Positions 44,774-63,124 of a stretch of 64,000 nt of DNA are shown here, piece after piece. The position numbers were made by a program, and so were the translations under genes. Origin of the DNA: Kofleriaceae bacterium. GTDB lineage: Bacteria; Myxococcota_A; Polyangia; Haliangiales; Haliangiaceae. Every line of letters begins with the position of its first letter. The first letter of the stretch is position 1. The stretch spans positions 62,001-126,000 of the forward strand of contig JAGPCY010000023.1 in the NCBI GenBank assembly GCA_018057825.1, in the 5' to 3' direction. The notes under the pieces were generated by a model. The model was not told the DNA's origin. It searched no databases and saw only the letters and a list, made by a program, of their open reading frames with translations.

Positions 44774-44881
44774 CGGGCGCTCCGTCGTGGGCAGCGAAGC
44801 GGGCAATCCGCGATGGCGTCGCCGATCGCGGCGCGCCAGTGGTGGTCGGCGCCGCGACCGACCTGCTATGAATGACCGTCC

Positions 44882-46225
<1,344 letters not shown>

Positions 46226-54543: not shown

Positions 54544-54566
54544 AGGCTGGGACGGGGGGGGCGCGG

Positions 54567-54788
54567 ACGGAGGCGGAGGCGGAGGCGGAGACCGAGACCG
54601 AGGCGGAGGCCGAGACCGAGGCGGAGTACGAGGCGGAGGCCGAGACCGAGACCGAGGCCGAGACCGAGGCGGAGGCCGAGACCGAGACCGAGACGGAGGC
54701 CGAGACCGAGACCGAGGCCGAGACCGAGGCCGAGACCGAGACCGAGTCCGAACCCGAACCCGAGGAGGAGGAGGAAGAGGAGGAGGCC
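54567..54788 (+). repeat. SGAGRC hexamer tract 4 (after the papain-like/lectin gene)
   Basis: About 220 bp of SGAGRC units beginning some 24 bases behind the TAG of the lectin gene. It follows the same order as the other tracts, GGAGGC first, and ends in a GAGGAGGAAGAGGAGG stretch against the convergent phosphatase gene. Confidence 0.95.
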
Positions 54789-60200: not shown

Positions 60201-60350
60201 GGGCGGAGGCCGAGACCGAGACCGAGACCGAGGCCGAGGCCGAGACCGAGACCGAGGCGGAGGCCGAGTCCGAGACCGAGACCGAGGAGGAGTCCGAGAC
60301 CGAGGCCGAGGCCGAGGCGGAGGCCGAGATCGAGACCGAGACCGAGGCCG
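60201..60350 (+). repeat. SGAGRC hexamer tract 5 (after the small lipoprotein gene)
   Basis: About 150 bp of SGAGRC units directly behind the TAG of the lipoprotein gene, before a gene on the same strand. This is the only one of the five tracts not between convergent genes. It therefore shows that the tract belongs to the 3' side of the upstream gene rather than to convergence itself. Confidence 0.95.
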
Positions 60351-60433
60351 CTGCGACGCGCTGACGCGCGCGACATCGTGCCGCGCGCCGTGGTGGTTCG
60401 CGGGCTCACCGATCCTTGCTCGGGGGTAGGTTC

Positions 60434-63124
60434 GTGCCCACGATCCTCGAGGTGGAACCCGCGGCCTGGAGCCCTCCTGCCGAGTTCGACGACCTGGAGC
60501 TGATCCGGCCGCTCGGTGCGGGCGGCATGGGCGCGGTGTTCCTGGCGCGCGAGCGCCGGCTCGATCGCTTGGTCGCGGTGAAGTTCGTCGCCACCGGCAC
60601 CCGCGATCCCCACGCGGCGGCGCGCTTCCGGATCGAGGCGCGGGCCCTGGCCCGCTTGCAGCACCCCAACATCGTCGCGGTCTATCGGCTCGGCGAGGTC
60701 GAGGGGCGGCCGTACCTCGCCTACGAGTACGTCGACGGGCAGCGCGTCGATCACCTGCATCGGCCGCTGGGCTGGCCGCAGGTCCTGGCGATCTTGCTCG
60801 GGGTCGCCCGCGGCCTGGCGGCGGCGCACGCCGCCGGGGTCCTGCATCGCGATCTCAAGCCGTCCAACCTGATGCTCGGGCCGGGCGGCGACGTCAAGAT
60901 CCTCGACTTCGGCCTGGCGCGGATCTTCGATCCGACCTCGGGCCTCGAGGCCGACGCCTCGGACGCCGATCCCTTCGTCCTGCCGCCGCTGGCCAGCACC
61001 ACCGCGACCTGGGACGCCAGCGCCGGCCCGGCCGACTCGTCGGGGCGCCTGACCTCCCACGGCCACCTGGTCGGGACGCCGCTCTACCTGGCGCCCGAGC
61101 TGTGGGGCGGTGAGTCGCCGACCCCGCGGGTCGATCTCTACGCCCTCGGGCTCATCGCCTACGAGCTCCTGCTCGGCTTCCATCCGCGCGAGCCGCTGTC
61201 GGGGATCGAGCTGGCCCAGCAGGTGCGGAACCGCGAGCTGCCGCGGTTGTCCGAGGAGGTGCCGGCGGCGCCGCGGCCGCTGACCGAGCTGATCGATCGC
61301 CTGGTCGCCCGCGATCCCGCGGCCCGGCCGGCCTCGGCTCAGATCGTGCGCGACGAGCTCGAGATCTTGCGCGCGCTGTACCGGCCGTTCGTCGGCGGGG
61401 CGCTGGCCGCCGCCGCCGACGAGGTCGGCGCGTCCTTCGAGCGCGTCAGCCGGCGCGGCATCGCGCTGACCGAGGAGTTCTACGCGCGCTGGTTCGCCGC
61501 CGATCCGTCCCTGCCGCCGCTGTTCGGCAACTCGATGGCGCTACAGCCGCGCATGCTCATGGCCGCCCTCAAGCTCGCGGTCGAGCACCTGCGCGACCCC
61601 GCGGCCCTGGTCGCGATCGTCGAGGACATCGGCCGCCGTCACGCCGGCAAGGGCGTGCGCCCCGAGCACTTCACGTCGATGGGGACGGCGATGATCGCGA
61701 CCCTCGAGGCCTTCGATCCCGCCTGGACCGAGGAGGCCCGCCGCGGCTGGTCGACCGCGTGGAGCGGCATCGCCCAGGTGCTGCGGCGGTCGCTCGCTGA
61801 CGTCGAGCCGGCGCCGACGCCGTCGGGGGCGCGCTGGCGATCGATCCTGCCACCCGAGCCGCCGCGCACCCACTGGCAGGTCACGCCCAGCGGCGACGTC
61901 GCCTGGCAGGAGATCGGCCACGGCCCGGTCGACGTGCTGGTCCTCGGCGAGTGGGTCACCGACGTCGAGGCGAGCTGGCGCCACCCGCTGGTCGCCGGGT
62001 TCTGGCTCGGCCTGGCCGAGGGCCACCGCCTGCTGCTCTTCGACCGGCGCGGCACCGGGTTGTCGACCCGCGGCGTGGCCCCGACCTTGGCCGCCCACGT
62101 CGACGACGTCTTGACGGTGCTGGCCGCCGCCGGGTCGGATCGGCCGATCGTGGTCGCCCTGGGGGACGCCGCCGCCGCCGCCGCGCTGTTCGCCGCGACC
62201 CACCCGCGGCGGGTCCGGGCCGTGATCTTCGTCGGCGGAGGCCTGGCCGAGCCCGCGAGCGCCAGCGACCTGGCCGCCGAGCTGCGCGCCGGCTGGGGCG
62301 GACCGGTTCGCCTCGGCGCGCTGGCGCCGAGCCTGGTCGACGATCCGGCCTATCGCCACTGGTGGGCGGGCCTGCTGCGCGGCGCGGCGACTCCGACGTG
62401 CGCGATCGCGCTGCTCGATCGCGCCCGGGCCACCGACGTCACTCCGGTGCTGGCCGCGATCCGGGTCCCGACCCTGGTGCTCCACCGGACCGACGACCGC
62501 GTGACGCCACCCGAGGCCGCTCACCGCCTCGCCGCGGCGATCCCGAGCGCGCGCCGGCTCGAGCTGCCGGGCGCCGATCACGTGCCGTGGGCCGGCGACG
62601 CCGACGCCATCGTCGTCGCGATCCGCGAGTTCCTCGACCAGGTGCCGACCGACGTCGCCACGCCGGTGGTCGCCGGCGCGGTCCTGGCGGTGGCGGCGCC
62701 GCACGCCGACGAGCGGTTGCGCGCGGCGGTCTCGGCCGAGGCCGCGCGCCACGGCGGCGTCGAGGTCGAGCCCCGCCCGGGCCTCCTCGCCCAGAAGGTG
62801 TTCGATCGCCCGGCCGCCGCGCTGGCGTGCGCGCGGGCGCTGCTCGTCGGAGGACCGTCGATCGGCGCGGCGATCGCGATCGGCCTCGACGTCGGTCCCC
62901 TCGAGCACGGCCGTCGGGTCGACGGGCCGGCGCTGGCGCGCGCCGCCACCCTCGCGACCGTGGCGCGCCCCGGGCAGCTCATCGCCTCGGCCGCGCTCTA
63001 CCACCTGGTCGCGGACCCGGCGGTGACCGAGCTCGAGCCGATCGAGCTCGACGGTGAGCCCGCGTTCGCGAGCGCGCTCGCCGGCGGTACCCCGAGCCGA
63101 CATCCCCAGGCGCGCTCGGCCTGA
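60434..63124 (+). CDS. Ser/Thr kinase - globin - alpha/beta hydrolase - degenerate cyclase fusion
   Basis: An 896-residue protein from GTG 60434 (an in-frame TTG at 60416 is less likely). Kinase domain (about 22-318): GAGGMGAV, Lys50, HRDLKPSN (138-145) and DFG (158-160), all intact. Globin domain (about 327-455): EEFYARWF with DPSLPPLFG, Gln371 at the E7-like place, and proximal His403 in GRRHAGKGVRPEHF, as in flavohaemoglobin-type globins. Alpha/beta hydrolase domain (about 485-750): LLFDRRGTGLSTRG and DDRVTPPE are present, with His in ADHVPWAG, but the nucleophile elbow reads ALGDAAAAA with no serine. The C-terminal domain (about 760-880) resembles the cyclase homology domain found behind such hydrolases, without metal-binding Asp. 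It is probably a haem-based oxygen or NO sensor that controls a kinase. Confidence 0.85.
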   Translation: MPTILEVEPAAWSPPAEFDDLELIRPLGAGGMGAVFLARERRLDRLVAVKFVATGTRDPHAAARFRIEARALARLQHPNIVAVYRLGEVEGRPYLAYEYVDGQRVDHLHRPLGWPQVLAILLGVARGLAAAHAAGVLHRDLKPSNLMLGPGGDVKILDFGLARIFDPTSGLEADASDADPFVLPPLASTTATWDASAGPADSSGRLTSHGHLVGTPLYLAPELWGGESPTPRVDLYALGLIAYELLLGFHPREPLSGIELAQQVRNRELPRLSEEVPAAPRPLTELIDRLVARDPAARPASAQIVRDELEILRALYRPFVGGALAAAADEVGASFERVSRRGIALTEEFYARWFAADPSLPPLFGNSMALQPRMLMAALKLAVEHLRDPAALVAIVEDIGRRHAGKGVRPEHFTSMGTAMIATLEAFDPAWTEEARRGWSTAWSGIAQVLRRSLADVEPAPTPSGARWRSILPPEPPRTHWQVTPSGDVAWQEIGHGPVDVLVLGEWVTDVEASWRHPLVAGFWLGLAEGHRLLLFDRRGTGLSTRGVAPTLAAHVDDVLTVLAAAGSDRPIVVALGDAAAAAALFAATHPRRVRAVIFVGGGLAEPASASDLAAELRAGWGGPVRLGALAPSLVDDPAYRHWWAGLLRGAATPTCAIALLDRARATDVTPVLAAIRVPTLVLHRTDDRVTPPEAAHRLAAAIPSARRLELPGADHVPWAGDADAIVVAIREFLDQVPTDVATPVVAGAVLAVAAPHADERLRAAVSAEAARHGGVEVEPRPGLLAQKVFDRPAAALACARALLVGGPSIGAAIAIGLDVGPLEHGRRVDGPALARAATLATVARPGQLIASAALYHLVADPAVTELEPIELDGEPAFASALAGGTPSRHPQARSA

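Follow-up and report, generated by a model that had tools for sequence, protein, structure and literature searches.

Bacteria are known to sense O2 and NO through globins that belong to chemoreceptors, histidine kinases and diguanylate cyclases. Myxobacteria have very large numbers of Hanks-type kinases, for most of which no signal is known. HemAT and the globin-coupled diguanylate cyclases and histidine kinases combine a haem globin and a signalling output in one chain, an arrangement that we propose for a protein encoded in the window, the 64,000-nucleotide stretch of a Kofleriaceae bacterium genome that was analysed. The classical sensors use an N-terminal globin of the S type (protoglobin family), whereas the globin of the window protein is of the F type (PF00042) and is located behind a Ser/Thr kinase. 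Globin-coupled sensors have been described as an N-terminal globin followed by a variable C-terminal part (PMC1457004). If it works as proposed, the window protein would resemble HRI in outline as a haem-controlled Ser/Thr kinase, but HRI is eukaryotic and its haem domain, once called globin-like, is disputed in this respect (PMC1457004). A globin-linked predicted oxygen receptor has also been reported from a myxobacterium, the globin-PAS chemoreceptor of Corallococcus coralloides, but its output is chemotaxis and not a kinase (PMC6194562). No description of a globin-Ser/Thr kinase family was found in the open-access literature, and the family is apparently undescribed. The principle of globin-coupled sensing is established, and an F-type globin located behind a Ser/Thr kinase appears to be a new variation on it.

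Domain architecture of the window protein

The gene encodes an 896-residue chain in which a Hanks-type kinase, an F-type globin, an alpha/beta hydrolase and a class III cyclase-like domain follow one another:

60434..63124, + strand: gene for the 896-residue kinase-globin-hydrolase-cyclase-like protein (GTG start; alternative TTG at 60416)
60485..61378, + strand: predicted Hanks-type Ser/Thr kinase domain, residues 18-315 (Pfam Pkinase, 5.5e-42; StkP and PknB as best solved relatives; model)
61400..61804, + strand: predicted F-type 3/3 globin of the flavohaemoglobin/single-domain kind, residues 323-457 (Pfam, 5.6e-12; PDB globins, 5e-14; pLDDT 95, Z 20.0)
61859..62641, + strand: predicted LipJ-like alpha/beta hydrolase without nucleophile, residues 476-736 (Abhydrolase_1, 2.6e-16; LipJ NCBIfam, 2.2e-44)
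62669..63079, + strand: class III cyclase-like domain with the metal-binding Asp absent, residues 746-882 (1ybt profile match, 5.4e-14; strands and helices in the model)

The GTG start is preceded by a GGGGG stretch, and a start at the upstream in-frame TTG is possible. The surrounding genes encode a TetR regulator, an Lnt-like protein, a small lipoprotein-like protein and a chromate transporter; no operon partner is evident among the adjoining genes. Two arrays of GAGGCC/GAGACC hexamers are found in the window (54566-54751 and 60206-60350), the second just upstream of the kinase gene.

The kinase domain possesses the catalytic residues K50, E68, D140 (HRD), D158 (DFG) and E222 (APE) and is predicted to be an intact-looking PknB/StkP-like enzyme, which bears out the intact Hanks-type kinase that an earlier note had read from the sequence. 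It shares its catalytic domain with kinases of the PknB/StkP type but lacks their PASTA repeats and has a globin as its C-terminal neighbour. The Lys, the catalytic Asp, DFG and APE are present in every aligned kinase of the family (n = 21) except L130, an open frame without the kinase N-lobe. The window's genome encodes a very large set of Ser/Thr kinases: a search with the protein gave 240 matches, nearly all to the kinase domain, and 150 kinase-like places among the matches listed.

A full-length AlphaFold2 model has a mean pLDDT of 77 and a pTM of 0.49, so the individual domains are credible while their mutual arrangement is unreliable. Because Foldseek matched the whole-chain model to kinases only, the globin was modelled by itself, giving a globin fold with a pLDDT of 95. 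Its top structural match is murine neuroglobin, with Z 20.0 and an rmsd of 1.5 over 130 residues; oxygen-bound Hell's Gate globin I follows with Z 19.8. The domain starts about 8 residues past the last kinase helix. It matches PF00042 above the cut-off at residues 348-450, and its sequence matches in the PDB include neuroglobin, Hell's Gate globin I, flavohaemoglobin and Vitreoscilla haemoglobin (VHb). The 896-residue protein has no match to the protoglobin family PF11563, and no FAD/NAD reductase domain follows the globin in the Pfam assignment, the hydrolase being located there instead. Four residues define the predicted haem pocket:

61481..61483, + strand: B10 Tyr350 (distal)
61523..61525, + strand: CD1 Phe364
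61544..61546, + strand: E7 Gln371 (distal)
61640..61642, + strand: F8 His403 (proximal)

All four are unchanged in 21 of 21 kinase-globin proteins despite globin identities down to 33-40%. The flavohaemoglobin-type globin with His403 and an E7 Gln, as claimed earlier, is thus found both in the residues and in the predicted fold, and the domain is predicted to have a complete haem pocket. A structure prediction lacking a globin fold, which the earlier note had named as one refuting outcome, is therefore not what was obtained. Fold and pocket are common to single-domain F globins and flavohaemoglobins (VHb, Hell's Gate globin I, Hmp), but the window globin is embedded in a kinase chain and lacks the reductase domain.

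By its profile matches, the remainder of the chain is a hydrolase-cyclase tandem of the mycobacterial LipJ (Rv1900c) type. Residues 476-861 match the NCBIfam LipJ family (NF058673) with 151.9 bits, far below the curated cut-off of 800. No Pfam family matches the C-terminal domain by itself, but its profile finds 1ybt, a structure of the LipJ/Rv1900c cyclase domain. Both folds carry substitutions at their catalytic positions:

62162..62164, + strand: hydrolase nucleophile position, Gly577 in place of Ser (residue alignment)

Gly occupies this position in 15 of the 19 hydrolase-bearing proteins, Ser in three (L136, L140, L145) and Cys in one (L146). Asp688 and His716 are kept, and their equivalents are invariant wherever the homologous sequence extends that far. 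Neither cyclase metal site has its Asp in the window protein or in the homologues as aligned by pairing to 1ybt. The loss of the nucleophilic serine and of the metal ligands, both noted earlier, is therefore borne out. Retention of Asp and His together with loss of the nucleophile suggests ligand binding and not catalysis, and both folds may have been retained for binding or dimerization instead of enzymatic activity. Mycobacterium tuberculosis LipJ has the same tandem, whereas in the window protein it is fused behind a kinase and a globin and has lost the nucleophile and the metal ligands. The earlier note knew of no globin-coupled Ser/Thr kinase with such a tail; none was found described in the open-access literature, but the tandem itself is known.

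A conserved family and other globin-kinase fusions

To define the distribution of the protein, 318 genomes of the class were searched with a globin profile. This resulted in 22 strong matches (E at most 4e-38), separated by a gap from all other globins (5e-33 and weaker). Inspection identified 21 kinase-globin proteins and one globin-PAS-MCP-like protein (G422 contig 133, locus L143). The chain of the earlier note does not stand alone: it has 20 further relatives, with which it forms a real and conserved family. The invariance of pocket and kinase residues points to selection. The closest relative (L012/L061), from a second species of the same genus, is 69% identical overall, and the complete genome of the cultured Minicystis rosea DSM 24000 carries the same architecture. 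One carrier genus has very large genomes, among them a single contig of 14,782,125 bases, presumably from Sorangium cellulosum. The hydrolase is kept in 19 of the 21 proteins, L015 and L142 consisting of kinase and globin only. Members of genus g315, which has large genomes, encode a putative zf-HC2 zinc-finger segment in frame ahead of the kinase (L134:3308-6739 (+), L132, L133, L135, L137, L138). Beyond the class, a sample of 294 genomes from the phylum of a Planctomycetales genome contains one kinase-globin protein of 451 residues; its contig is 7.6 kb long and may be a contaminant. An acidobacterial sample of 297 genomes has no match at that level, and the plasmid collection contains no full-length relative.

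Globins are joined to Ser/Thr kinases in other arrangements as well. Two chains (L041:2-4225 (-), L042:1983-5999 (+)) consist of kinase and globin followed by cNMP-binding domains and an aminotransferase class V-like part. Leucine-rich-repeat proteins with a terminal globin are encoded in L022, L030, L040 and L043, and in one of them, L043, a kinase stands in front. A further line (L044:1533-3896 (+), L045:2113-5010 (-), L047:2325-4703 (-), L096:2099-4381 (+)) combines a Ser/Thr kinase, a [2Fe-2S] ferredoxin domain (Fer2), a putative cyclase-like middle without Pfam support and a C-terminal globin; its hosts are Myxococcota and, for L096, an Acidobacteria metagenome-assembled genome (MAG). The globin tree places the kinase-Fer2 globins in a separate well-supported part (98/99); the kinase-LRR globin clusters with the LRR-globins (99/92) apart from the window's group, and the window's group (99/97) takes in the cNMP type. 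These separate positions indicate that a globin was probably joined to a Ser/Thr kinase at least three times. Related bacteria have globins joined to several other signalling outputs, namely globin-PAS-MCP, CheA-globin and kinase-Fer2-globin. The CheA histidine kinases, with an inserted F-type globin, are found in proteobacterial MAGs (L065:3464-6799 (+), L088:870-3944 (+)).

Gene neighbourhood in relatives and in the window's genome

A lone single-domain globin gene adjoins the kinase-globin gene, in varied orientations, in six loci from five genera (L131, L136, L140, L145, L146, L147). In several loci a regulator of about 490 residues with a sigma54-type AAA domain (PF00158, about 1e-39) is also encoded beside the kinase-globin gene, and in L140 regulator, globin and kinase follow one another on one strand. 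Regulators of this family are encoded at the following places, among others:

L140:2113-3612, + strand: sigma54-type AAA regulator with FHA-like N-terminus, GAFTGA loop absent
L141:6080-7576, - strand: sigma54-type AAA regulator with FHA-like N-terminus, GAFTGA loop absent
L145:6289-7710, - strand: sigma54-type AAA regulator with FHA-like N-terminus, GAFTGA loop absent
L146:7906-9372, - strand: sigma54-type AAA regulator with FHA-like N-terminus, GAFTGA loop absent

The N-terminal 170 residues appear FHA-like by eye, with LGRG and SRxQ motifs; the Pfam FHA_2 match is weak (E 0.14) and confined to one of the four regulators. Absence of the GAFTGA motif from the AAA domain in the sequences inspected makes sigma54 activation doubtful. 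Among the 318 genomes, the five closest members of the regulator family are all found in kinase-globin carriers. An F-type globin lies within 7 kb of 14 of the 21 closest family members and of 0 of the next 24, compared with about 0.5% expected by chance. Regulator and single-domain globin genes occur together, often with 45-232 bp between them, even where no kinase-globin gene adjoins. FHA-bearing enhancer-binding proteins of Myxococcus reportedly take input from Ser/Thr kinases. Such proteins were reported by Jelsbak and colleagues in 2005, a paper among the references of PMC12288465. The FHA-like AAA regulator is a likely output of the kinase-globin protein in the relatives.

The window's genome, a draft of 84 contigs, contains neither a close member of this regulator family nor a lone F-type globin gene. 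The fused globin is its sole F-type globin, the others being two of the protoglobin type and two truncated globins. Two sigma54-type regulators of the window (44876-46222 and 905-1909) were rejected as orthologues of the kinase-linked regulator, with 150 and 133 bits versus about 800. A truncated globin within a 904-residue frame of the genome was likewise rejected as a fusion; the open frame is long and GC-rich, and the globin gene inside it is short and ordinary.

A proposed haem-gated kinase and its alternatives

We consider it rather likely that the window protein is a soluble Ser/Thr kinase under the control of a haem globin. The globin would bind haem b through His403, and in the ferrous state it would bind O2 (or NO or CO) via the Tyr B10/Gln E7 pair; because of this distal pair, O2 is our first guess for the ligand and NO the second. 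NO synthase was rejected as a general source of ligand: it is encoded in only 15 of the 318 genomes (all six of genus g315, also genus g51) and is absent from the window's genome, so an endogenous source of NO of this kind cannot be general. Binding or loss of the ligand would move the globin against the kinase C-lobe or alter dimerization, switching autophosphorylation, while the dead hydrolase and the cyclase-like domain may serve as ligand-binding or dimerizing regulators. The output would be Ser/Thr phosphorylation of a protein partner, in the relatives likely the neighbouring FHA-like AAA regulator. This haem-gated model agrees with the invariant pocket and with the genes that adjoin the relatives' loci. 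Against it stand the position of the globin after the kinase, the globin of classical globin-coupled sensors being N-terminal, the absence of the regulator and of the lone globin from the window's genome and, for the regulator, the weak FHA match and the missing GAFTGA motif. A more far-reaching version, which we put forward tentatively and regard as doubtful, is a gas pathway new in kind: an F-type globin would gate a Ser/Thr kinase, an FHA-like AAA regulator would read the resulting phosphorylation and control the free globin gene, the dead hydrolase and cyclase would be extra ligand sensors, and the window's species would keep the kinase without its partner.

The kinase could instead sense haem occupancy or a ferric/ferrous redox switch, in the manner of the haem-regulated eIF2alpha kinase. 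Such sensing has a eukaryotic precedent in the haem-regulated Ser/Thr kinase HRI (PMC1457004). The globin model has neuroglobin among its nearest structural matches, and some globins have been proposed to sense redox state (PMC3520999). The invariant distal Tyr/Gln pair is, however, of the gas-ligand type, and we regard this reading as unlikely. Flavohaemoglobins and Hell's Gate globin I, which rank among the nearest relatives of solved structure, have the same Tyr B10/Gln E7/His F8 pocket, as would be expected if the globin were a tethered NO dioxygenase or O2 supplier and the kinase regulated otherwise. We judge this quite improbable: the chain lacks a reductase domain, the attachment to a kinase is conserved in 21 proteins, and the separate single-domain globin adjoining in several genomes could do the enzymatic job.

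The widespread retention of the hydrolase, with Asp and His kept and the nucleophile mostly lost, is compatible with a dead-hydrolase receptor for a small hydrophobic ligand as the true input, the globin being mainly structural or a dimerizer. However, L015, L142 and a third protein from another phylum's sample consist of kinase and globin only, the kinase-globin-cNMP line has no hydrolase, and the globin is the constant part with its haem pocket invariant; we give this reading a similarly low probability. A metagenome assembly chimaera, conceivable in a draft genome, or a chance fusion was rejected because the 896-residue architecture recurs in the congeneric species, the complete Minicystis rosea genome and many others, and a decayed pseudogene is at odds with selection on the pocket and kinase residues, leaving this explanation a negligible probability.

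A conserved direct link between a haemoglobin-type domain and a Ser/Thr kinase would supply the Hanks-type kinases with a defined input that is simple to assay. The relatives, whose hydrolases have Ser, Cys or Gly at the nucleophile position, represent a natural series of pseudo-enzymes, and this possible family of gas-sensing kinases is testable in cultured strains.
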